Shown here piece after piece: positions 8,498 to 26,300 of a stretch of 40,870 nt of DNA (its first letter is position 1; each line of letters starts with the position of its first letter). The notes below the pieces were generated by a model, which was not told the origin of the DNA, ran no database searches, and was given only the letters and a program-made list of their open reading frames with translations. Location: the IMG/VR virus record IMGVR_UViG_3300006076_000292, positions 1-40,870 of that record; one strand, written 5' to 3'. Source of the DNA: a virus. The position numbers were made by a program, and so were the translations under genes.

Positions 8498-11425
8498 ATG
8501 AATGAGAACATACAGGATGAACAATATTGTTGCGTTACTGAGTCCAAGTTATATGATAAAGAGAGTTTTATGGAATTTGGATTATTCAGTGAACAAATTT
8601 TTGGTCCATTGAGAGATTATACTTGTCAATGTGGTACAATGAAACAAAATGGAGAAAGATGTCAAATATGTGGAGTTAGATACATTAAATCAGAAGCGAG
8701 AGATCATACATATTCAGTTATCAAACTACCATTCAGAATTATTGCCCCTCAATTATTTCATATCTTATGCAAAATTGATACAACAATCGCAAAAGAATTA
8801 GAATCATATAAATTAGATATTCAAAAAGTTTATGATTTAGTTGATTCAATTAAATCAGATTCATATGATTCTACATCACAAAATGTAATTATTGCAAAAG
8901 GAATTATTAATCAATTTCCAGAATATGCAGATATGCGAGAAATTTTAGTAATACCACCTAACTTAAGACCTGTATCAGGTTCTGCTAAAAAATACTTAGC
9001 TGATAGTATTAATGATTCATATCAATCTATTCTTGAACAAGTTAATGAATATAATAATTCAGTTGTTAAAAATAATTATCACGTAATGATTACTCAAAAG
9101 ATCATTTATCAAAATTTATATTTAACAGAAATTATAAATAAACTTTCAGGAAAACAAGGTTTAATCAGACAATATATGTTAGGTAAGAGAGTTGATTTTA
9201 GTGGTAGAACTGTTATTGTTCCTGATGTTACGTTACCAAATGATGTTATTAGATTACCTTATAAAATTATTGCAAAAATATTTGAACCTTATATCATTAA
9301 TAAGTATTCAAATGTGATACAAGCATATAATGATTTAAATAAATTTAATAAAAGTGGTGAACTTACATCTGACCTTAAGAAAATAATTAATCAAATTTGT
9401 ATTAATGATAAAATTCCAGTTCTTATTAACAGACAACCTACATTACATAGAATGTCTATGAGAGGTTATTATCCAATCCCTACAGAATCTAATTCAGTAC
9501 ATATCCCTATAATTATTACTGATGGATTTAATGCAGATTTTGATGGTGACCAAATGGCAATTTATGCTCCACTTATTGCAGAAGAGATTGAAGAGTATAT
9601 GACTAAATTTATTAATCATAGAAATCAAATACAACACGGTGTATTGAAATTTATGTCAATTACACAATTTGCATATGGTGTATATATAATGACTAAAGAT
9701 AATCCTGTTGAAAAGCCAAGAGTTTCAATTAATGGTAATGAACCTAATAGTATTATTGAAGAATTATTCTTTGAAAAAGGTTATGATTATTCAGAATCTA
9801 TTAAAGTTATTCTTGATGAAAATACAGAATACATTACTACATTTGGTAGATACTTTTTATCTATTTATCTTGATACACTTATAACATATCCTTTAAATAA
9901 ATCTAAATTCAATGACATTATAACTAAAAAATTAATGAGAATTTTAGATAATAGATCATTATGCTATGATGATTTAAAACCTGTTGATAACTTATTAACA
10001 AAACATTTAGCTGATATTTCGCCTACAATTTCATTAAGAACTGTATGTGATATTTATCAAAATAAAGAGTTTACAAATACTCTTGATAAATTAAGAAATA
10101 CAAAATCAAATTCTAAATACAAAGAATATGAGAAAGAATTATTAGGTATTGTCAATAATTCACCTGAAACAGAAAATATAATGAATATTATTAAATCTGG
10201 TGCAAAAGGTGGTATTAGTTCTGTTAAGCAATTAGTTATATCAAAAGGTTATGTAGTTGATGTTATGGGAAATAAAGTTCCTCATTACATTAATGGGTCA
10301 CTAGTAGAAGGTTTATCATTTAAGGATATGTATGTAATGTCTCACGGTGCAAGAAAAGGATCATTAGATAGATCAGTAAATACAGCATCTACTGGTTACT
10401 TAATGAGAAAGATTATTTTTGCAATCCAAGATGTAGAATATGATCATTCAAATGAAGATTGTGGTGCAGAACCTATTCTAAACATTACACTAACTGAAGA
10501 TAATTACTATGCTTATATTTATAAATGGTTTATTGTTGCTGGTTCAGAAGATAAAGAACTTATCAAATTAACTCTAGATAATTATACTGAGTATTTAGAT
10601 AAAGAATTAATATTCAGAACTCACATTAACTGTAAATCAGAAAAAGTTTGTCAAAAATGTTATGGTCATTATAACAATATATTTAATTCAAAATATGTTG
10701 GTATTATTGGTGCACAAGCATTAGGTGAAAGAGTTACACAATTAACAATGAGAACATTCCATACAGGTGGTACTGTATCAGATATTAGGGAGGAAATTGA
10801 CCCTCAATATTTCTCACATGTTGATGATGATTACTTCAACTTAACAGCACTTGAAATCGAAGACATTGATGACTTGGAATATGAAGTAGGTAATGAATTG
10901 ACTCATAATATTTACATTACATTAGAAGATGGTGTTGAATTAATGATTCCTAAATCAGCAATTATGAATGTTAAAATCAAACCAAAATCTAAAATAACAA
11001 AAGGAACAAAAATATTCTCATTATCTGGAGGAGCAAGTTCAGTTATTAACTTATTAGATTTGGTAATGACAAACATTGAACATCCTGATAAAAATGTAAA
11101 ATCTTGGAGAGAATTATATGATATTTTATTCAAAGCATTTTATGAAACAGAAGGGATTATATCTACTCACTTGGAAACATTAATATCAAATATGTTAAGA
11201 AATCCAGATACAAATGAGTTAGCAAGAATTAGTCCTGATGGAATTGATAATTATTATATTCTTTCTATTAAGAAAATTCCAATCTTAAGAAGAATATTAA
11301 CAATGGGTTATCAAGGATTCCATAATAACTTATTGAAATCATTAGCAACATTTAAAGATAATAAAGAATCAAGTATTCTTGAGAAAGTTATCTTAGGTGT
11401 TACAAAACAAAGTTTAGGAATTTAA
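8498..11425 (+). CDS. Phage multisubunit RNA polymerase beta' subunit, undivided
   Basis: The catalytic large subunit of a bacterial-type RNA polymerase. Seen in order: an N-terminal zinc ribbon (C43, C45, C55, C58), KQGLIRQYMLGKRVDFSGRT (219-238), PVLINRQPTLHR (307-318), the Mg-binding NADFDGD loop (D347, D349, D351), a trigger-loop helix around GARKGSLDRSVNTASTGYL (617-635), the second zinc site (C655, C712, C718, C721) and the QLTMRTFHTGG bridge (748-758). All hallmark blocks are on one chain of 975 aa. E. coli beta' has 1407, and the difference is loss of lineage inserts and surface domains. In phiKZ-like and AR9-like phages beta' is usually in two pieces, so this intact form is notable. 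A sigma70-like promoter precedes it and the beta N-terminal gene follows. Confidence 0.96.
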   Translation: MNENIQDEQYCCVTESKLYDKESFMEFGLFSEQIFGPLRDYTCQCGTMKQNGERCQICGVRYIKSEARDHTYSVIKLPFRIIAPQLFHILCKIDTTIAKELESYKLDIQKVYDLVDSIKSDSYDSTSQNVIIAKGIINQFPEYADMREILVIPPNLRPVSGSAKKYLADSINDSYQSILEQVNEYNNSVVKNNYHVMITQKIIYQNLYLTEIINKLSGKQGLIRQYMLGKRVDFSGRTVIVPDVTLPNDVIRLPYKIIAKIFEPYIINKYSNVIQAYNDLNKFNKSGELTSDLKKIINQICINDKIPVLINRQPTLHRMSMRGYYPIPTESNSVHIPIIITDGFNADFDGDQMAIYAPLIAEEIEEYMTKFINHRNQIQHGVLKFMSITQFAYGVYIMTKDNPVEKPRVSINGNEPNSIIEELFFEKGYDYSESIKVILDENTEYITTFGRYFLSIYLDTLITYPLNKSKFNDIITKKLMRILDNRSLCYDDLKPVDNLLTKHLADISPTISLRTVCDIYQNKEFTNTLDKLRNTKSNSKYKEYEKELLGIVNNSPETENIMNIIKSGAKGGISSVKQLVISKGYVVDVMGNKVPHYINGSLVEGLSFKDMYVMSHGARKGSLDRSVNTASTGYLMRKIIFAIQDVEYDHSNEDCGAEPILNITLTEDNYYAYIYKWFIVAGSEDKELIKLTLDNYTEYLDKELIFRTHINCKSEKVCQKCYGHYNNIFNSKYVGIIGAQALGERVTQLTMRTFHTGGTVSDIREEIDPQYFSHVDDDYFNLTALEIEDIDDLEYEVGNELTHNIYITLEDGVELMIPKSAIMNVKIKPKSKITKGTKIFSLSGGASSVINLLDLVMTNIEHPDKNVKSWRELYDILFKAFYETEGIISTHLETLISNMLRNPDTNELARISPDGIDNYYILSIKKIPILRRILTMGYQGFHNNLLKSLATFKDNKESSILEKVILGVTKQSLGI

Positions 11426-11462: not shown

Positions 11463-12674
11463 ATGAATAAAATTTTCGTATCGCATAATGAACCAATTAC
11501 ATCACTTGAATGGAGAAGAAATAATGTTCAATATTTACTTGACAATTATATTCCATTTTTGATAAATAAATTGAAAACAGATAAAACTGATGTTAAAGAC
11601 ATTAAATTAGAAGAGTTAACAGGTCAATATAGTACAGAAGGATTTAGTTATAAGAATTTAAAATTATTAAGCTTTATTCTTGTTACTAATAGAGGTGAAT
11701 TTGAAATTAAAGTAAAATTACCTGTTCCATCAGATGATGATATATTCACTATTAATAGAAAACATTATATTCTTGTAAATATTTTGTATGATAATATCTA
11801 TTATATTTTGAATAGAACTATTAACTCAGTAACATTTAGAATCACATATGAAGGTCTTTGGTTTCAATTTAAAGGTTCACAATCTAAATCACAAGTAGGT
11901 GTTCCGTTAGTTAATGTTTTATACACATTAGATACATTAGATTATTGGTTCAGTAATTATGAAGTATCTACTGAAAAAATAGAAGGTAAAGAATGTATTG
12001 AAATTGGAGAATCAGGTGAATGGTTTTGTTATGAAAAAGATGAAGCAAGAGAAACTGAATTTTCTGAAGGATATGATTTACTTAAACGATCATTTATTCA
12101 TATTAAGAAATGGAACTTATTAGAAAAGAATAAGGAAAAATTACTTGATAAAGTTACTTCACATAATCCATTTGAATATTCATTAGAATATGAATTCTTA
12201 CTAGGTCATAATGATTTAGGAAGATTATATAATGAAATGATTGAAAAATATCAAGAAAAATATTTACATTTAGAAGATGAAATTCATATTGATTTTAAAA
12301 GAGTAGGTTATTACAATACATTACTGATTCCTTTTGAAAGAAGAATTCAAACATTACTTGGATTATTTAAAAGAGCAAAGAATGCAGATATTGCTTGGCA
12401 TCAAAAAATGCCTAATAACTTATTAACAAAAGATGCAAAAGTTAATAAATATTTACAATATTTAGAATTAAAAAATCCTTTTGAAGAAATAGGAATTAAA
12501 ACTAAATTAGTAACACCATTAACTAATGTGCCTAAGTATATGAGAAAAACAATGAATTCAGGATATGGTCAAATATGTCCATTAGATACACCTGATAGTA
12601 AAAATATTGGAGTAGTGCAACATTTAGCTGTCACATCTAATATTGATAACAAAGGGTATTTTATTTCTCAATAA
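11463..12674 (+). CDS. Phage RNA polymerase beta subunit, N-terminal part
   Basis: The N-terminal piece of a split beta subunit, 403 aa. The clearest block is near the end: KYMRKTMNSGYGQICPLDTP then DSKNIGVVQHLAV, which matches the bacterial R.....SHYGR.CP.ETPEGPNIGL region that lines the active-site channel. The upstream part, with an LLGLFKRAKN-like helix and beta segments, corresponds to the lobe and protrusion, with weak similarity only. The chain stops shortly after, at GYFISQ, about where E. coli beta is near residue 590. The rest of beta is coded 4.3 kb downstream. AGGAGG precedes the ATG. It is presumably co-transcribed with beta'. Confidence 0.9.
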   Translation: MNKIFVSHNEPITSLEWRRNNVQYLLDNYIPFLINKLKTDKTDVKDIKLEELTGQYSTEGFSYKNLKLLSFILVTNRGEFEIKVKLPVPSDDDIFTINRKHYILVNILYDNIYYILNRTINSVTFRITYEGLWFQFKGSQSKSQVGVPLVNVLYTLDTLDYWFSNYEVSTEKIEGKECIEIGESGEWFCYEKDEARETEFSEGYDLLKRSFIHIKKWNLLEKNKEKLLDKVTSHNPFEYSLEYEFLLGHNDLGRLYNEMIEKYQEKYLHLEDEIHIDFKRVGYYNTLLIPFERRIQTLLGLFKRAKNADIAWHQKMPNNLLTKDAKVNKYLQYLELKNPFEEIGIKTKLVTPLTNVPKYMRKTMNSGYGQICPLDTPDSKNIGVVQHLAVTSNIDNKGYFISQ

Positions 12675-12830: not shown

Positions 12831-13592
12831 ATGATTCCAGTTGTCGAAAAATTTCTATCCATTCAAGGGGAAGGAAGAAGAGTTGGTCACCCATCAGTAT
12901 TTCTTAGACTTGGAGGATGTAATTTGCGATGCCAAGGATTTGGCGTAGGTTACGATGTAAATGGTGAAGCTAAAAAAGGTTGTGATTCTTGGTTCGGTGT
13001 TGATCCTGGATTTAGAAAAAATTGGTCAATTTACACTCAATTTAATGAGCTTGTACATGACTTAGATACAATAGGATTAAACATTGATAAATCAGAAAAA
13101 CCTGATTTAGTTATCACTGGTGGAGAACCTACAATACATTGGAATAATCCTGAATTCCAAAAATTGCTTGTTTATTATATTAGTAGACAAGTTAATATTA
13201 CAATTGAATCAAATGCATCATTAAATCTTAATTTTACAAAACCATATCAAAAGAATATCGCGTTTAGTATGTCTGTAAAATTAAGTAACTCTGGAGAACC
13301 TGAACATAAAAGAATTAATATAGATGCAATAACTAATATATTAGAAAATGCACCATCTAGTTATTTTAAATTTGTAGTTGATAAAGCAAATGGTAGTCAA
13401 ATAATGGATGAAATTAATTCAATACTGGATCAAGTGCCTTATTACGCTGATGTATTCTTAATGCCATTAGGTGATACTAAAGAAAAAGTACAAGAGAATG
13501 CAGAGTATGTGGCTAACGAATGTGTGAAATATAATTTTATATATTCTCCAAGAGAACATATTAATATCTGGGATAATAAACAAGGGGTTTAA
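12831..13592 (+). CDS. queE: 7-carboxy-7-deazaguanine synthase (QueE), radical SAM
   Basis: QueE converts 6-carboxytetrahydropterin to 7-carboxy-7-deazaguanine with S-adenosylmethionine and a 4Fe-4S cluster. The N-terminus is typical: VEKFLSIQGEG (5-15), GHPSVFLRLGGCNLRC (19-34), and later a GGEPT motif for SAM binding. The cluster cysteines are C30, C34 and C51, a CX3CX16C spacing in place of the radical SAM standard CX3CX2C, with FGVGYDV... between and GCDSWF after. Non-standard cluster spacing is known in QueE enzymes. The fold is otherwise complete at 253 aa. It stands between the two beta-subunit genes, behind a structured leader, with its own terminator overlapping the stop. Confidence 0.92.
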   Translation: MIPVVEKFLSIQGEGRRVGHPSVFLRLGGCNLRCQGFGVGYDVNGEAKKGCDSWFGVDPGFRKNWSIYTQFNELVHDLDTIGLNIDKSEKPDLVITGGEPTIHWNNPEFQKLLVYYISRQVNITIESNASLNLNFTKPYQKNIAFSMSVKLSNSGEPEHKRINIDAITNILENAPSSYFKFVVDKANGSQIMDEINSILDQVPYYADVFLMPLGDTKEKVQENAEYVANECVKYNFIYSPREHINIWDNKQGV

Positions 13593-15845: not shown

Positions 15846-16589
15846 ATGAAAAATTTAGGAATTGTATCTGTTAGTGGTGGAATAGATTCAGCAACTGTTG
15901 CTTGTGAGGTTTTAGAAAAAGGTTATGATTTAGTAATCGTTAATTTCGAATATAATCAAAAGCATAAAGTTGAACTTGTAGCATTTGATAGAATTCATAA
16001 GTGGCTTGAAGAAAAGTATAATACAAAGATACCTGTACATAAAATAAATTTAGTTCCTCTATTAAATAGTTTCATAGGAATATGGGAAGATTTACGAGAT
16101 TCTAAAGAAATAACAAATTATACAGATCATCAATATTATACACCATCAAGAAATTTATTGTTTTCTGTTATTAGTTCTGTTATTGGCGAGATTATAGGTT
16201 TCTCTAAGCAATATGACAAGATCTATGTTGGTCTTGGTATTCATACACATTCAAAAGAAGCCTATGGAGAACATAAAGACTATTGGGATATAACACCAGC
16301 ATTTTATGAAGCTCTTAATAATGTATTCAAACTTAATGATGTAAAAGATGTAAGATTATTTGCACCATTCGTTGATAAAACAAAAGGTGAATTAATTAAA
16401 AGAGCATTAGAATTACAAATTCCATATCATAAAACTTGGACATGTTATAATCCAAATACAATTGAATCAAATGATAAAGTTATTTACACACCTTGTAATG
16501 AGTGTGAAGCTTGTAAGGAGAGAGAACTTGCAGGAAAAAATATAGGTGTTGCTGATATTAATGATTATGAAGTTGTGATAGAAAAATAA
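15846..16589 (+). CDS. queC: 7-cyano-7-deazaguanine (preQ0) synthase QueC
   Basis: QueC uses ATP and ammonia to turn 7-carboxy-7-deazaguanine into preQ0 through an amide intermediate. The protein has the full PP-loop SGGIDS (10-15), YTPSRN (98-103), the HTHSKEAYGEHKDYWD segment (133-148) that follows QueC's substrate region, and the zinc cysteines C200, C217, C220 and C223 with TWTC before and ECEACKERE after. Its 247 aa is near the usual 220-240. All key residues are intact, unlike the PP-loop of the fusion two genes upstream. It has its own promoter-like box. It faces the minus-strand gene at 16611-16862 across a terminator. Confidence 0.95.
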   Translation: MKNLGIVSVSGGIDSATVACEVLEKGYDLVIVNFEYNQKHKVELVAFDRIHKWLEEKYNTKIPVHKINLVPLLNSFIGIWEDLRDSKEITNYTDHQYYTPSRNLLFSVISSVIGEIIGFSKQYDKIYVGLGIHTHSKEAYGEHKDYWDITPAFYEALNNVFKLNDVKDVRLFAPFVDKTKGELIKRALELQIPYHKTWTCYNPNTIESNDKVIYTPCNECEACKERELAGKNIGVADINDYEVVIEK

Positions 16590-16963: not shown

Positions 16964-18661
16964 ATGATTTCACCAGTATTATCAATTATGCCACTTATCC
17001 AAAGCACAGATGGAAATAGGATTGCAATGAGTAAATCTCATCATATTCAAAGTCAAATGTTATCACAAGATGGAGTTAATATTTCATCAGAGATTCCTCT
17101 TATTAGAACACAGTTTAGTGATATATTCAGTAAATCATCAAAGTTCTTTATTAAGAGAGCATCTAATGATGGAGTTGTTAAAATGATAGATAACTTAATT
17201 ATTGTTGAATATGTTAGTGGTGAAATGGACATCATTGAAAAACAACCATTTTATAACATTGTAGTTAATAATAATCAAGAGGTTAAGAAAAATCAAATTA
17301 TTATGATTCATAAATCATATTCTCCTGATTTAATTATCAGATATGGTGTTCATATGAATGCTATGTTTGGAAGACTTAAAAATACATTTGAAGATGCTAT
17401 TGTAGTTAGTGAATCAGGTGCGAAGAAACTTACATCTTATATGATTGAAGTAATGGATATTCCTATCAATAAAAAAGTATTTGATGTTAATTATGCCAAA
17501 ATAGAAGAAGGAGTTCTTTCTGAAGGTGATTGGTTAGTTAAAGAATATAAGAAACCAATTACATTATTGAGTTCACCATCTTATGTTCATTATGCTAAAC
17601 ACGATATGGAAATTATTAGTATCATTACACAAGTATTTGATCCTAAAATTAAAATATCAAAAAATACAACTGATTTTATGAATAGACATTCTGTTGATAC
17701 AGAAATGGAAAATGTTCAGAAAGTAGTTGATCCTAAAAATGTAACAAGAGTTAAAAAATCAATTATGGTAAATGATAATGATTCAGTTGCAGTAATGAGA
17801 ATAACTTATAAAAGATTAATTCCATTAGAACCAGGTGATAAACTTGTTAATAGATATGGTAATAAAGGTGTAGTTAGTAAAATAATTTCTGATGAAGAAA
17901 TGAAAAAAGAATTTCCTTATCAAGATGAATTACCAAGCTATAATCCTGAAATTGTATTTAATGCATTAGGTGTTCATACAAGAATGAATCCTTCTCAATT
18001 AGGAGAATTACAATTGAATTATATTTTGAAATATATAATTCCTCAATACATTAGAACACTTAAACTTAGAAGAAAATCAAACTATGAAATTCTAGAGTTT
18101 GTTACAAAAAATATTCATTTTAGATTATCAGAAAATTATGGTTTGAAAATATTAGATACAATTAAGAAATTATCAGATCAACAATTAGATATCATAATAC
18201 AAGATATTCTTGTTAATGGATTACAAATTGAATTACCTGTGTTTGGTGAACAATATCTACTAAAGATTTATGACATTATTAAAACATTAGCACCTAAATA
18301 CTTTGATCAAATAGATACATTTGGATTTGGTGTATTCTATGTTATGAAACTAGAACATATGGTAGAAAAGAAAGTTAATGCTGTTTCTACTTCTAAATAT
18401 AGTGCTAAGTTTCAACCAATTGATGGTCAAAGAGTAGGGGAAATGGAAACTTGGAATCTTATTTCATATGACGCACCAAATACATTATATTCAATGCAGA
18501 AAATAAAATCTGATGAACCTCATAGTAAAGCTATTGCTTATGAGAAAATAGTTAATCACGGAACAGCACATATGATAGATATTGATGATTCAGATGCAAC
18601 AGCTAAAAGATTAGTTGAATCATTGCTTAAAATTGTAGATATCGATATTTCAAAAGTATAA
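16964..18661 (+). CDS. Phage RNA polymerase beta subunit, C-terminal part
   Basis: The C-terminal piece of split beta, 565 aa. It begins within the block matching E. coli near residue 650: SIMPLIQSTDGNRIAMSKSH (7-26) corresponds to SLIPFLEHDDANRALMG. Next come DAIVVSESG (144-152), the catalytic-lysine segment GDKLVNRYGNKGVV (291-304, with K293 and K301), NALGVHTRMNPSQLGE (333-348), and the clamp-contacting GFGVFYVMKLEHMVEKKV (454-471) and GQRVGEMETWNL (488-499). All active-site parts are present. About 60 residues of the bacterial chain between the two phage pieces have no counterpart here. AAAGGAG precedes the ATG. The C-terminal tail is longer than the beta' anchor requires. Confidence 0.95.
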   Translation: MISPVLSIMPLIQSTDGNRIAMSKSHHIQSQMLSQDGVNISSEIPLIRTQFSDIFSKSSKFFIKRASNDGVVKMIDNLIIVEYVSGEMDIIEKQPFYNIVVNNNQEVKKNQIIMIHKSYSPDLIIRYGVHMNAMFGRLKNTFEDAIVVSESGAKKLTSYMIEVMDIPINKKVFDVNYAKIEEGVLSEGDWLVKEYKKPITLLSSPSYVHYAKHDMEIISIITQVFDPKIKISKNTTDFMNRHSVDTEMENVQKVVDPKNVTRVKKSIMVNDNDSVAVMRITYKRLIPLEPGDKLVNRYGNKGVVSKIISDEEMKKEFPYQDELPSYNPEIVFNALGVHTRMNPSQLGELQLNYILKYIIPQYIRTLKLRRKSNYEILEFVTKNIHFRLSENYGLKILDTIKKLSDQQLDIIIQDILVNGLQIELPVFGEQYLLKIYDIIKTLAPKYFDQIDTFGFGVFYVMKLEHMVEKKVNAVSTSKYSAKFQPIDGQRVGEMETWNLISYDAPNTLYSMQKIKSDEPHSKAIAYEKIVNHGTAHMIDIDDSDATAKRLVESLLKIVDIDISKV

Positions 18662-18746: not shown

Positions 18747-19550
18747 ATGGGAGCTAAAGTTAGAATTACATATAATGATGTAGATGAATTTGCACAAATT
18801 ATTGCTAATGATTTGAAGAAATTAGATAATTATGATTTAATGGCATTTTATAGAGGTGGGTTACCATTAGGTGTTAAAATTTCAAATGTTTTAGATAAAA
18901 ACTTAACAGGTATTTTATTACAAACAAGAGATCAAATTAGAAAACCTCTATGTTTATTTACTCATAAAATAGAATCAAAAACATTAGTTGTAGTAGAAGA
19001 CATTATTGATAGCGGTAAAACTATTGTAAAATTTCTTACAGAACTTAAGAAAAATTATGATATTGATAAAGTATATATTTATACGTTAGTTGAAAATACT
19101 GATACTACAAAAAATATGGATGTATTAAATCTTAATTTTGATGTTGAAGTTAAATCATTGATTAAATATTTTCCTGATACATGGTATGTATTTCCTTGGG
19201 AAATTATTAATGCTAACCAAGCAGAACCAGTATCTGATCTTGTTAGATCAATGGAAGAAACATTCTCAAATTGCTTACATATTGCAGCAAAGAAAAATTC
19301 AGATTATAACGCAGGTACTAACCCATTGGATAATTTTATGAATGTTGAGAAACTTAATATTGCTACAGCAGAACAAGGAATATTAGTTAGATTATCTGAT
19401 AAACTTAGTAGATTAATTTCTTTATCTAAACCTGATAAAGTTCAACAAGTAAAAGATGAAAGTATTATGGATACTATTGATGATGCAATCAATTATATGG
19501 CATTACTAAAAGAAGTTATTAAATACAAAAAAGGTCAAACTAATGAATAA
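18747..19550 (+). CDS. Phosphoribosyltransferase fused to a DUF1599-like domain
   Basis: A 267-aa fusion. Residues 1-155 are a type I PRTase: YRGGLPLG (35-42), the PRPP loop VVVEDIIDSGKT (81-92) and a late VFPWEI (148-153), as in xanthine/hypoxanthine-type enzymes that add ribose-5-phosphate to a base. Residues 165-262 match DUF1599: KKNSDY (182-187), LVRLSDKLSRL (213-223) and DESIMDTIDDAINYMALL (237-254), an all-helical, MazG-like layout with acidic metal-binding positions. To my knowledge DUF1599 is also listed as a nucleotide-modification-associated domain. The start at 18747 follows AAAAGGAG. A GTG at 18681 in frame is rejected. Likely role (inference): making or policing nucleotides of a modified purine, given the 7-deazaguanine genes. 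Confidence 0.82.
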   Translation: MGAKVRITYNDVDEFAQIIANDLKKLDNYDLMAFYRGGLPLGVKISNVLDKNLTGILLQTRDQIRKPLCLFTHKIESKTLVVVEDIIDSGKTIVKFLTELKKNYDIDKVYIYTLVENTDTTKNMDVLNLNFDVEVKSLIKYFPDTWYVFPWEIINANQAEPVSDLVRSMEETFSNCLHIAAKKNSDYNAGTNPLDNFMNVEKLNIATAEQGILVRLSDKLSRLISLSKPDKVQQVKDESIMDTIDDAINYMALLKEVIKYKKGQTNE

Positions 19551-19770
19551 TACACAAGATAGAATCAATGAATATAAAAGAAAGCTAGAAACTTTACAAA
19601 AAGAAAAACAACAAACAGAAGTAGAATTACAAGTATTAGAAAAAGAACTTGCACAAGCAAAAGATAAATTAAAAGAATTAGGTGTTAATATCGATGAATC
19701 AGACCCACAAGAGCTTGTTGCTAAGATTAATAAATCAATAGATGATTTAGAATCAAAAATAAACGATTAA
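19543..19770 (+). CDS. Small coiled-coil protein, 75 aa
   Basis: The first 50 residues are a continuous heptad-like helix rich in Lys, Glu, Gln and Leu (RKLETLQKEKQQTEVELQVL and on). A short second helix follows. It overlaps the previous gene by eight bases, so translation is coupled to the PRTase-DUF1599 fusion. It is probably an oligomeric partner or scaffold. No enzyme motif is seen. Confidence 0.7.
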   Translation: MNNTQDRINEYKRKLETLQKEKQQTEVELQVLEKELAQAKDKLKELGVNIDESDPQELVAKINKSIDDLESKIND

Positions 19771-21863: not shown

Positions 21864-22925
21864 ATGAAATTTGCAGTTATTAAAGATCCACATTTTAGAT
21901 TTGGATTTACTAATAGTATCAGAAGAAACTATGATGGTGATTTAGTTAATAAAATTAATCAATTGATTCAAATATTGAAAGATAATAATGTTGAGTATTT
22001 ATTAATACCTGGAGATATCTTCGATGAGAGTTATGGTAACAAGTGGAGATTCCAAGCTTATCAAATGAATAAAGAAATACTAAAAGAAATCAGTAATGCA
22101 GGAATTAAGATTTTATCAATACCAGGAAATCATGATTATTTTGATGGTTATGAAGATTCATCAAGAAAAACTATCGTTGGTGATAAAGAAGCATCGAAAT
22201 ATACAAAGCCTATTACTATAACACAATACACAGTGTATGGTAAAATAACAAGTGATGATGATAATATTATTGAAGATGTTGCTTTTAAAACAGGTGATAA
22301 AGTTAATAATTATCAAATAATTGAAAGAACGTTAATTACTGGTGTTCGTTATAGATCAGATCTTAGTATAGTTACAGAAGAATTAAATGAAATCCATAAA
22401 CTTATTAATGAGTTAAAAAATAATAATTCAATCGATGAAGCAGTAGTTATGTTACATCAGAATGTCACACCTGGTGAAGTAAAACATATTACAGAATTTA
22501 CATATGATCAATTAGCAAATGATTATCCTAATGTTGATTATTTCTTATTAGGGCACTATCATGTAGGATATGAACCTACTAAAGTTAATAATACTTGGTT
22601 TATTAATCCTTATAATTTCACAAGAGTGAATCGTAATTATGAAGTAAGATTAAATGAACATACACCAGAAGTTGTAATAGTATCTGATAAAGATAATGTT
22701 GAGAATATTAAATTAAAAGTTAAATCATTTGATGAAGCATTTATTCCTGAATATATCAGTTTCATGAAAATTACAAATGAAGAATTAAAGAAAGATTCAC
22801 TTGATTTATCACTAGATGAAAATTTAATGAAAGACGATGAAATTATAGCAAAAGTTGCACAAGAGCATAAGTTTGATACAAAGGTAATTGATTATGTTAT
22901 TAATAAGATGAATTCGGTTAAATAA
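21864..22925 (+). CDS. Mre11/SbcD/T4 gp47-type nuclease
   Basis: A metallophosphoesterase nuclease that works with a Rad50-type ATPase in end processing and recombination-dependent replication. Metal-site residues are D8 and H10 (KDPHF), D51 (PGDIFDE), N89/H90 (GNHD), H198 (LHQN) and H231/H233 (GHYH), which is the complete Mre11 set. Its length of 353 aa is close to T4 gp47 (339). Residues about 110-160 form a beta-rich insert between the GNHD and the next conserved block. AAAAGGAG precedes the start. The Rad50-like gene lies one gene downstream, separated by an unknown 414-aa gene. Confidence 0.92.
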   Translation: MKFAVIKDPHFRFGFTNSIRRNYDGDLVNKINQLIQILKDNNVEYLLIPGDIFDESYGNKWRFQAYQMNKEILKEISNAGIKILSIPGNHDYFDGYEDSSRKTIVGDKEASKYTKPITITQYTVYGKITSDDDNIIEDVAFKTGDKVNNYQIIERTLITGVRYRSDLSIVTEELNEIHKLINELKNNNSIDEAVVMLHQNVTPGEVKHITEFTYDQLANDYPNVDYFLLGHYHVGYEPTKVNNTWFINPYNFTRVNRNYEVRLNEHTPEVVIVSDKDNVENIKLKVKSFDEAFIPEYISFMKITNEELKKDSLDLSLDENLMKDDEIIAKVAQEHKFDTKVIDYVINKMNSVK

Positions 22926-22950: not shown

Positions 22951-24195
22951 GTGAAAGATGATTTACAATTTAAAATGAATACAGGTGAACATATAGATGA
23001 ATCTGATTTCATGAATTCAAACTATTTTGAATATCAATTTATATTATCAGGTAGAAATGTTGAAATTAGAAAATTTATACAATATTTATCATCAATATTA
23101 GAATATCCTATTATTGGTGCAAGATATAATGGTGAATATGTTCATGAATCAATAAGAGAAGCAAATAATCAAAAAGTAATATTTGATATGAATCTTGAAA
23201 TGATGAATTCAAATCAGAAAGGAATTCATAAATATTTAGATATTAGAGATTGTAGTTTTTCAGGTAATGATTCAATATATTCATTACAAATAAAAACATA
23301 TTTACCAATACAAACTGAAGCATATAACTTATTAAAAGGTTATGTTAATTATAATGTTCGATTAAAACAAGTTCAAGCTGATTATAGTATACTTAAAACT
23401 AAAAGATTTCAAATTTATAATTTTCAACAAATGCGATTCTTTACAGCATCGCCAAAAAGCCCATTTATATTAAATAATCCTCACACATATTTTTCATCTG
23501 ATTATGGTATTCCAGGAGAAAAAGACAGATATGGTAAAGTAAAAACCAGTAATATATTCGGTATTAAAGATACTTGGGTTTTAGAAAGAGTTGAATCAAA
23601 TGAAACACAAAGTATTAAAGTACATTCAGTTAAATTGCTAAAAATGTCTTATGATGCCGAACACTATAAGGATTATGGTGAAGCATATTATAATAAAGTC
23701 CCTATACTTGATGGTACATGTTTTGATGAAATTGCAAATCGTGTAAGATCATATGTAGATCCTATGAAATCACAATTTAATATATTTAAATTCTATCATG
23801 GTAAAACATTAACAAATACAATGGAGCTTGCAATGTTTAAAGCAATTGATGATATTTGTGGTTATACAAGAGGACTTGCAGGTTCTGGAAAATGTTTCAG
23901 TAGTTTAACTGAAAATGTTGTAAATAGATATGGGTATATTTTTCTTGAATTAATTATAAACACATTCAATTATGTTAAACCAAATATTAGTCATAGAGGA
24001 ATAGATATTAGATGTATGACTGTTGATTACCCTGCATATTATATCTTTTTAACACACAAAGATTATGTATCAGCAAATTCACAAAGGATATTCTATTATA
24101 TTGTAAGTCAAGGAATATATAATTTAACATATAACTTCTTTAGAGAATATATAAGTTATTATCGTGCAGGATTACCATTAATACACAATAGATAA
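22951..24195 (+). CDS. Hypothetical protein, 414 aa, between Mre11 and Rad50 genes
   Basis: No family is recognised. It starts with GTG at 22951 (AAAGG six bases before). The chain is rich in Tyr, Phe, Asn and Ile. The middle (about 170-260) has beta segments. The C-terminal third (about 285-414) is helical and contains CGYTRGLAGSGKCFSS, which looks slightly like a P-loop but lacks the GxxxxGK[ST] spacing. There is no signal or membrane segment. Its place between the Mre11 and Rad50 genes suggests a partner in the same repair complex or a displaced regulatory domain, but this is context only. Confidence 0.65.
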   Translation: MKDDLQFKMNTGEHIDESDFMNSNYFEYQFILSGRNVEIRKFIQYLSSILEYPIIGARYNGEYVHESIREANNQKVIFDMNLEMMNSNQKGIHKYLDIRDCSFSGNDSIYSLQIKTYLPIQTEAYNLLKGYVNYNVRLKQVQADYSILKTKRFQIYNFQQMRFFTASPKSPFILNNPHTYFSSDYGIPGEKDRYGKVKTSNIFGIKDTWVLERVESNETQSIKVHSVKLLKMSYDAEHYKDYGEAYYNKVPILDGTCFDEIANRVRSYVDPMKSQFNIFKFYHGKTLTNTMELAMFKAIDDICGYTRGLAGSGKCFSSLTENVVNRYGYIFLELIINTFNYVKPNISHRGIDIRCMTVDYPAYYIFLTHKDYVSANSQRIFYYIVSQGIYNLTYNFFREYISYYRAGLPLIHNR

Positions 24196-24216
24196 AAACA
24201 TAAATTAGGAGAAAAA

Positions 24217-26226
24217 ATGAGAAATATTATTTATAATTTATTAATTGAAGTAACTAATATGAATACAGCAATTAATCAATTAAAAGTTATGAAAGAAGAA
24301 AAAGAGGAATTAGAATCAAAAGTAGAATTAATAACAGATGCAGATAAATTAACTAAATTAGCAAAATCATATAAAATTGAATCAAGAAAACAATTTATTC
24401 TTAATGTTATTAATCAAGCATTACATGTAGTATTCACAGATAATTATAAGATAGATATTATTATTGATGAAAGTAAAACATCAACTAGATATAATATTGT
24501 TTATAAACTTGTATTATTTAAGAATAATGTAGAAATTGCATCTAATGCTGATTTATACACTACTACTGGTGGTGGAGTTATAACTATTATTTCATTTATT
24601 ATGAAAATAATCTTAGGTTATATTAATACTGGTAATAAATTCTTTATATTAGATGAAGTATTTTCACAAGTATCTGAAAAATACAGACCGGGTATTGCTC
24701 GATTACTTAGAATATTATGTGATAAATATGATTTTACATTCTTCATTATCTCACATGATAAACTAGAACAAGAAGATGTTGATGTTGTTTATCACGCATC
24801 ATTAGGATTTGATGAAGATAATATTCCATTATTAAATATAAAAAGAGAATACAGTAAATATAAATTTGATAAAGATTATTATGCTGTTGAAATAGAAAAC
24901 TTTCAATCTATTAAGAAAGAAACAATATTCATAAAAGGCGTTACTGTTGTATATGGTGATAGTGATTCAGGTAAAAGTGCAATACAAAGAGCTATTAGTT
25001 CAATTATCTTAAATGATTTCATTCCTAAGTCATATCCAAGATGGAGAAAGAAAGGTTCTAAAAAGATAAACACTAGAATTAAATTCATAAAAGATACTAA
25101 TTCTAATAAAGAATTTATTGAATTAAATTATAAAGATGTTGTTAAGTACAATACTCATACAGGAGAAGAATTTACTGGAAAGAAATTAGCATCAGAAAAT
25201 ATAAATACAATACTTGAATCATTTGGATTTGCTAAAATTAATACAAATAATTTAACAAATGATCTTAAAGAACAAGTATCACGAATTTATATTACTACAC
25301 AATATGATAAATTATTTCTACCTGAAGAAAGAAATGGTGTTGAAAAAATACTTACAATATTATTTGAATCACAAATATATAATGATGTTAGTTCTATGAT
25401 CAATGGTGAAATATTAGAAATTAATAAGAGTTTAAAAGATATTCATTATAAATATGATGAATTATCACAATATGTGATTAAACAGAAAATAAAAGTATTG
25501 AAATTATCTAGAGATTCTGTTATTAAAGTATCTGAAATTACTGACTCATTACAACAATATCGAGATACGATTAGTAAAATAGATGATAAGATTGTGAATA
25601 TAAAAGAAGTAATCTATAATCTAGAGAAAATAAAACAAATTGCTATATTAAGTGATGTTAAATTAAGTTTAAATTTGAAAAAAATAAAATTATATGATCT
25701 TGATGATAAAGTCAAACTTGTTAATGACATCATTAGTAAATATAATGTAATTAAATTAGTAGATGGTGTTCAAGAAACTAAAGAATCAATTACAAATCAT
25801 GTTAATAAATTAGATACAATTAATAATAAACTACAAGTTGCTAATGATCTAATATTATTAACTAAAGTTAAGAAACAATACTCACTTAAAAATAAAATGC
25901 AAAAATCAAATGATAATATTAAAGTAGTTCAATTAAGTATCATAAGAGAAACTATTAATAATTATGAATATATGAAAAATAGAAAAGTAGAATTAACTAC
26001 AAAACTTAATAACATTACTAATACAATAAGTAATATAAATGATGTTATTAATGATATGAATAAATTACAGGATATTAAAAATAATGTCTTAATAGTAATA
26101 GATAAGATGGATAAGTTAGAAAAATATAAAGATAAACTATCACAAATAAATGATAGTATTGGTAAATTACCTGATGAAATAGGAATACACATATGTCCTA
26201 CTTGTAATGGTAATGGTTATGTTTAA
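24217..26226 (+). CDS. Rad50/gp46-type ATPase with permuted lobes
   Basis: An SMC/Rad50-family ATPase, partner of Mre11. The motif order is unusual. The C-terminal-lobe parts come first: TTTGGG (115-120, signature place), Walker B FFILDE (142-147) and H-loop H180 in IISHD. The N-terminal-lobe parts come second: VEIENFQSI (224-232), Walker A GDSDSGKS (247-254) and Q-loop-like TTQYD (360-364). A coiled coil from about 390 runs to the end and stops at CPTC (660-663), like the Rad50 zinc hook. In normal Rad50 the order is Walker A, coil, hook, coil, Walker B. Here the chain seems cut near the hook and rejoined at the ATPase heads, keeping only a short coil (about 15-45) before the first lobe. AGGAG precedes the ATG. 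A strong terminator follows. Confidence 0.85.
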   Translation: MRNIIYNLLIEVTNMNTAINQLKVMKEEKEELESKVELITDADKLTKLAKSYKIESRKQFILNVINQALHVVFTDNYKIDIIIDESKTSTRYNIVYKLVLFKNNVEIASNADLYTTTGGGVITIISFIMKIILGYINTGNKFFILDEVFSQVSEKYRPGIARLLRILCDKYDFTFFIISHDKLEQEDVDVVYHASLGFDEDNIPLLNIKREYSKYKFDKDYYAVEIENFQSIKKETIFIKGVTVVYGDSDSGKSAIQRAISSIILNDFIPKSYPRWRKKGSKKINTRIKFIKDTNSNKEFIELNYKDVVKYNTHTGEEFTGKKLASENINTILESFGFAKINTNNLTNDLKEQVSRIYITTQYDKLFLPEERNGVEKILTILFESQIYNDVSSMINGEILEINKSLKDIHYKYDELSQYVIKQKIKVLKLSRDSVIKVSEITDSLQQYRDTISKIDDKIVNIKEVIYNLEKIKQIAILSDVKLSLNLKKIKLYDLDDKVKLVNDIISKYNVIKLVDGVQETKESITNHVNKLDTINNKLQVANDLILLTKVKKQYSLKNKMQKSNDNIKVVQLSIIRETINNYEYMKNRKVELTTKLNNITNTISNINDVINDMNKLQDIKNNVLIVIDKMDKLEKYKDKLSQINDSIGKLPDEIGIHICPTCNGNGYV

Positions 26227-26260
26227 TAATAGAGTGTCAAAACGGCACTCTATTATTTTT
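26225..26260 (+). terminator. Strong rho-independent terminator after Rad50-like gene
   Basis: A 14-pair stem, AATAATAGAGTGTC with GGCACTCTATTATT (one G-U) and a five-base loop, is followed by a long T run. It marks the border between DNA-metabolism and virion genes. Confidence 0.92.
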
Positions 26261-26300
26261 TTTGTTTTTGTTAATTTAACAAGTCCAAAAAGGATTTAAT

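Follow-up and report, generated by a model that had tools for sequence, protein, structure and literature searches.

The usual textbook picture of a Rad50 or SMC protein is of a single chain that has to leave the head, turn at the hook and come back. The canonical Rad50/SbcC proteins, which include T4 gp46 and SPN3US gp186 (PMC5105663), carry a Walker A lobe, a coil, a second coil and a Walker B lobe in that order within one chain, and in T4 gp46 and gp47 prepare DNA ends (PMC5105663, PMC3175470). Fusions of Mre11 to Rad50 have also been described, in Mimivirus (R555) and in Bacillus phage 0305phi8-36, and in the latter the P-loop segment was reported as not observed (PMC3175470).

The protein considered here is encoded by the IMG/VR virus record IMGVR_UViG_3300006076_000292, which was analysed in its entirety (40,870 bases; hereafter the window) and is probably a genome fragment. 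It has in common with canonical Rad50/SbcC the two ABC lobes, the Q-loop, the signature, Walker B, a coil with a CxxC motif and an Mre11 partner; in contrast to them, however, the chain opens with the Walker B lobe, passes directly into the other lobe and ends at the CxxC. The Mre11::Rad50 fusions likewise join genes of the Mre11-Rad50 set, but the partners differ and the order of the lobes is not swapped. With a split module of phage genes that we term N-M-S-C, as found in Bacillus phage vB_BboS-125, the window shares both lobes, an N part ending in CxxC, Mre11 and the small protein S, but that module has an N gene followed by a distinct C gene, whereas in the window and in five relatives (L194-L198) C is fused ahead of N. 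We consider it highly probable that this C::N gene is a tail-to-head fusion of the C and N genes of the split module, and that its product still acts in a phage Mre11-Rad50 complex. Our searches of the open-access literature turned up neither a split nor a permuted phage Rad50, in keeping with the remark in the preliminary description that no phage Rad50 of such a form is well described.

A Rad50 protein with its lobes in swapped order

The C::N gene is a single open frame encoding 669 residues (24217..26223, stop codon 26224-26226; all coordinates of window features are on the + strand). It starts with ATG behind a ribosome-binding site seen in the sequence (AGGAG, 24207..24211), and directly 3' of it stands a hairpin with a T-run (26231..26265), likewise seen by inspection, unscored by any tool and likely a terminator; because this element adjoins the gene, we take the CPTC end of the protein to be the true gene end. 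The C-lobe (residues 1-215, 24217..24861), assigned by HMM and by structure match, begins with a coil stub and continues with the ABC signature region TTGGG (residues 116-120, 24562..24576), Walker B FILDE (143-147, 24643..24657) and the H-loop His180 (in SHD 179-181, 24754..24756). The N-lobe starts at about residue 222 (24880..25386) and holds the motif NFQS (228-231), Walker A GDSDSGKS (247-254, 24955..24978) and the Q-loop Gln362 (in ITTQYD 359-364, 25300..25302), a residue that is invariant in two N-lobe alignments (A9 and A11). Some 270 residues of coil lie between the N-lobe and the CPTC motif, with a helical/coil region predicted, at low confidence, from the AlphaFold secondary structure at residues 375-648 (25339..26160). 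CPTC itself (660-663, 26194..26205) sits within a C-terminal CxxCxGxG, ten residues from the chain end. Relative to canonical Rad50 the motifs are reversed, running signature, Walker B, H-loop, and only then Walker A, Q-loop and terminal CxxC.

Profiles built from stand-alone phage proteins, with the window left out, matched the two halves in just this order (C-lobe HMM, residues 2-199, E 2e-21; N-lobe HMM, residues 222-527, E 3e-14), confirming that the protein carries homologues of the Rad50 N-lobe and C-lobe in swapped order. No second Walker A lies before residue 115, a region in which the preliminary description had allowed for one, and no stretch of the protein other than GDSDSGKS fits G-x4-GK[ST]; the coordinates and motifs given in that description, including the terminal CPTC, are correct. 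Its identification of the protein as Rad50 is likewise borne out by the two gene families to which the halves belong, each of which matches the corresponding part of archaeal Rad50. In the PDB, the profile of the split N family matches the N-terminal chain (3qkr_A, 5e-11) and that of the split C family the C-terminal chain (3qkr_B, 3.6e-11), the best matches being chains A and B, respectively, of P. furiosus Rad50, and the two families match opposite ends (N-terminal and C-terminal) of NCBIfam Rad50 models. Among the PHROGs, residues 10-183 match phrog_15167 ('ATPase', 211 aa; 2.6e-11) and residues 223-267 match phrog_16465 ('exonuclease', 491 aa; 5e-5), which are two distinct gene families. 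The only PDB sequence match of the C::N protein itself was an enolase, which we rejected as a chance match to the coil.

For structure prediction, AlphaFold was run on a 36-row alignment (A7), picked before folding from 640 sub-sampled alignments scored on the registration of known motifs. This model has a mean pLDDT of 64, with the C-lobe at about 85; the model of the N-half was weak (63). Model residues 29-212 align with the C-terminal part of P. furiosus Rad50 (9a9j_B, Z 9.5, 165 residues, 4.0 A; 1f2u_B 738-882, Z 8.4). SMC heads score just below Rad50 for this lobe, so that the fold alone does not tell the two apart. The P. furiosus Rad50 head was solved as two chains, and entries 1f2t and 1f2u list A and B separately; a covalent coil between the lobes is therefore dispensable for the Rad50 fold, and it is plausible that the directly joined lobes fold as one continuous head, as the preliminary description proposed.

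Permuted relatives and a split Rad50 module in phages

The search for homologues of the same order that the preliminary description called for was productive. Five more swapped proteins, of 604, 660, 685, 677 and 638 aa, are encoded on the metagenomic phage contigs L194-L198, respectively, each with a C-lobe, an N-lobe and then a CxxC near its end in an uninterrupted frame. They came from the third of our alignment-based N-lobe scans of viral contigs, the 160 loci of the first two having shown the swapped order in the window alone, and only alignment-based N-lobe queries brought them to the surface. No relatives emerged when single proteins (the window's C::N protein, its Mre11 and an RNA-polymerase fragment) served as queries against viral contigs and phages, and a DNA pattern running from Walker B through the H-loop to GxSDSGKS found, in its GATGAR version, one true split locus (L010) and no fusions; the relatives escaped such patterns because their Walker A reads GPNNSGKS. 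Six matches to the GACGAR version were discarded as copies of one helicase read in a chance frame.

The relatives show 26-31% identity to the window protein across the full alignment and 33-36% across the part aligned by BLAST. They derive from three metagenome accessions, and since the proteins of L195-L197 are 76-78% identical to one another, we count about three clearly distinct lineages (the window; L194/L198; L195-L197). Across all six proteins, GGG 118-120, D146-E147, G247, S251-GKS254, Q362, C660, C663, G665 and G667 are invariant. Of the six, the window protein alone has the H-loop His; the five relatives have Gln at this position, which may mean a departure from the usual catalytic mechanism. 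From the H-loop residue to Walker A the spacing is 66-75 residues in every one of the six, and the window gene has no in-frame start codon between residues 196 and 232, which together indicate that the lobes are directly joined. The relatives' records contained no second C match and no convincing second N match.

These relatives also bear on the possibility, raised in the preliminary description, that a sequencing or assembly error had rearranged an ordinary Rad50 gene. The window is indeed a metagenomic virus contig; however, five homologues at 26-31% identity share the swapped order on other, independent contigs, which excludes chance and misassembly, and the frame runs uninterrupted through a linker of conserved length. 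In addition, overall and third-position GC are similar in all segments, which disfavours a chimera. For the family, then, an assembly artefact is refuted, and we give this explanation almost no credence.

A widespread and apparently undescribed split-Rad50 module exists in phages alongside these fused genes. It comprises N (N-lobe and coil with CxxC near its end, ~300-450 aa), M (Mre11), S (a coil protein, ~77 aa) and C (C-lobe, ~205 aa). Alignment-based scans of viral contigs returned 80 + 80 + 80 loci with some overlap between them. In all 116 loci where N and C are separate genes, the two share a strand and N comes first; as some contigs overlap, these loci are not all independent. Of the N ORFs that reach 280 aa, 223 of 229 have a CxxC within the last 40 residues, so outside the fused clade chains as a rule end at the hook motif. 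In vB_BboS-125, for example, gp32 is an N-lobe and coil ending ...GGICPLCEQTHKGGGC, gp34 is a small coil protein and gp35, immediately behind it, is a C-lobe only; they belong to PHROGs 16465 ('exonuclease'), 18563 (unknown) and 15167 ('ATPase'). Because the N product here already ends at CxxC, this phage suggests a split Rad50 and not a rearranged ordinary one. In some large phages N and C are far apart, and in one of them C lies upstream of N.

Another member of the module, L174, combines an M::N fusion with separate S and C genes; we take it to be Bacillus phage 0305phi8-36, recognised by its matching Mre11/Rad50 fusion. Its separate C-lobe gene (L174:6304-7011, E 3e-39) corresponds to the P-loop segment missing from that fusion. 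Other loci showed peculiarities of their own. L092, a short contig assigned to a Ferroglobus (archaeal) MAG, has a split N gene with Mre11 and is perhaps an archaeal virus; at L164:3992-5378 a gap divides the N gene into two ORFs, perhaps through an intron or an inserted gene; and the phosphoesterase domain of one 700-aa Mre11 ORF (L130:5224-7323) seems to be interrupted in frame by an intein-like insertion (CFPPETPVLD to VHNC).

Probable origin of the C::N gene

The six permuted proteins group together (support 0.999) in the C-lobe tree as well as in the N-lobe tree, in a clade that adjoins or nests within the split genes of large phages, with support at the next node of 0.87 for C and 0.78 for N. 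The two trees agree on this neighbourhood. Branches are long, the window's being ~2.3 substitutions per site, and the exact sister group is uncertain for that reason.

The preliminary description called the protein a circularly permuted Rad50. The swapped order has held up, but a permutation of an intact gene is not what the data favour. Such a permutation, in which a single-chain Rad50 gene was duplicated in tandem and lost its outer halves independently of the split family, would lead to an identical final architecture, for lobes, coil and CxxC are present under either route. However, both halves of the window protein have stand-alone phage N and C genes as their nearest relatives, and the C::N protein matched neither the canonical phage SbcC family phrog_77 nor the NCBIfam Rad50 models. 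The split N proteins, moreover, already end at the hook motif, and the permuted clade nests among the split genes of large phages. We therefore regard permutation of an intact gene as improbable, and gene fusion within the split-Rad50 lineage as the better description of the origin. Since N and C can be far apart and variable in order in large phages, a C-then-N order could have arisen there by rearrangement and then fused.

Under gene fusion, a C gene would have been joined in frame upstream of an N gene whose product already ended in CxxC. The resulting chain would hold the full set of ABC motifs, with Walker A and the Q-loop supplied by the N-lobe and the signature, Walker B and the H-loop by the C-lobe. 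Judged by their motifs, the two halves appear to make up a normal ABC head in content, and the covalent route alone would differ.

Mre11, S and a proposed mechanism

The window encodes an Mre11/SbcD-like nuclease of 353 aa (21864..22922; Pfam Metallophos 2.6e-13, M HMM 8e-18) with all five phosphoesterase motifs (DPH, GDxFD, GNHD, LHQN and GHYH). Its gene lies upstream of C::N, as it does in L194 and L198; it is not adjacent in L195-L197, and in records G008 and G009 it is ~13-14 kb away from C::N. Between the two genes the window has a 414-aa ORF (22951-24195) without a Pfam or PHROG match; in L194 and L198 its place is taken by an ORF of ~104 aa that looks unrelated.

These neighbours matter for a further reading, namely that the protein is a divergent ABC/SMC-like ATPase with a function other than that of Rad50 (for example in DNA compaction, or in defence or counter-defence), and that Mre11 is nearby by chance or for another pathway. 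Very low identity to any named protein, the Gln in place of the H-loop His in the relatives and the non-adjacent Mre11 in L195-L197 all lean that way. Nevertheless, all permuted-Rad50 records but one, a 35-kb fragment, encode an Mre11 homologue (five of six), which is also a regular neighbour in the split module, and the C profile scores Rad50 above SMC or ABC transporters. We consider a non-Rad50 function improbable, and the fused chain is most likely the ATPase of a phage Mre11-Rad50 complex for DNA-end processing.

A candidate S protein of 75 aa, a small coil protein, is encoded at 19543..19767. It matches an HMM of 89 S proteins, from which the window was excluded, at E 8e-6, with the next window ORF at 0.13; our first model gave it 0.03, and the E of 4.8e-18 obtained with an alignment that includes the window sequence is not independent. 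G006 and G010 likewise encode S-like proteins, of 76 and 82 aa, at a distance of ~12 kb from C::N. The three smaller permuted-Rad50 records yielded none, but there absence proves little. We considered whether S and the C stub together form the full return strand of the coil, and found the idea unsupported: across 74 loci, N length covaries neither with S length (rho 0.05) nor with the length N-terminal to the C-lobe (rho 0.05), which disfavours it. S has probably been kept as a subunit of the complex. It may bind a segment of fixed length, and in the permuted Rad50 it could pair at the coil end, which the preliminary description took to be free.

The rest of the window offers some further observations. 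Multisubunit RNA polymerase genes lie at 8498-11425, 11463-12674 and 16964-18661; the beta-prime gene matches phage RNA polymerase genes, and the other two look like pieces of beta split by other genes. Similar genes are present in G006 and G010, the two larger of the relatives' records, and an RNA polymerase match in the latter (G010:C1:107414-108319) contains two in-frame TAG codons, possibly an intron or stop recoding. ORFs recognised by eye as FolE-, QueE- and QueC-like (202-765, 12831-13592 and 15846-16589, respectively) suggest a putative 7-deazaguanine pathway of DNA modification.

By analogy with Rad50, ATP would dimerise two C::N heads, and the dimer would associate with the product of the upstream Mre11 gene, gating its nuclease. 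Such a complex may process DNA ends for the recombination-dependent replication of the phage. At the other end of the molecule, the terminal CxxCxGxG probably supplies half of a zinc site, and the CxxC at the coil end probably joins, via zinc, to its counterpart in another molecule. It is tempting to speculate, though we would sooner bet against it than for it, that the phage Rad50 coil is built from separate polypeptides, and that the permuted head is a single-chain ABC unit whose open-ended coil is closed and opened by S and the terminal zinc site. If so, ring closure would be an assembly step and not a built-in property of the chain.

The split module explains why widespread phage genes have been annotated piecemeal, as 'exonuclease', 'ATPase' or 'hypothetical', and the 0305phi8-36 lobe that its Mre11/Rad50 fusion was reported to lack is now located. 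The permuted Rad50 has no return connection and its lobes are joined in reverse, yet the residues of the ATPase and the hook are conserved in six phage proteins. This natural separation of parts raises the question of whether a continuous coil is needed to couple ATP hydrolysis to the nuclease. A protein believed to be bound to a fixed layout can be split and rejoined, and about 100 other phage loci keep its genes separate.
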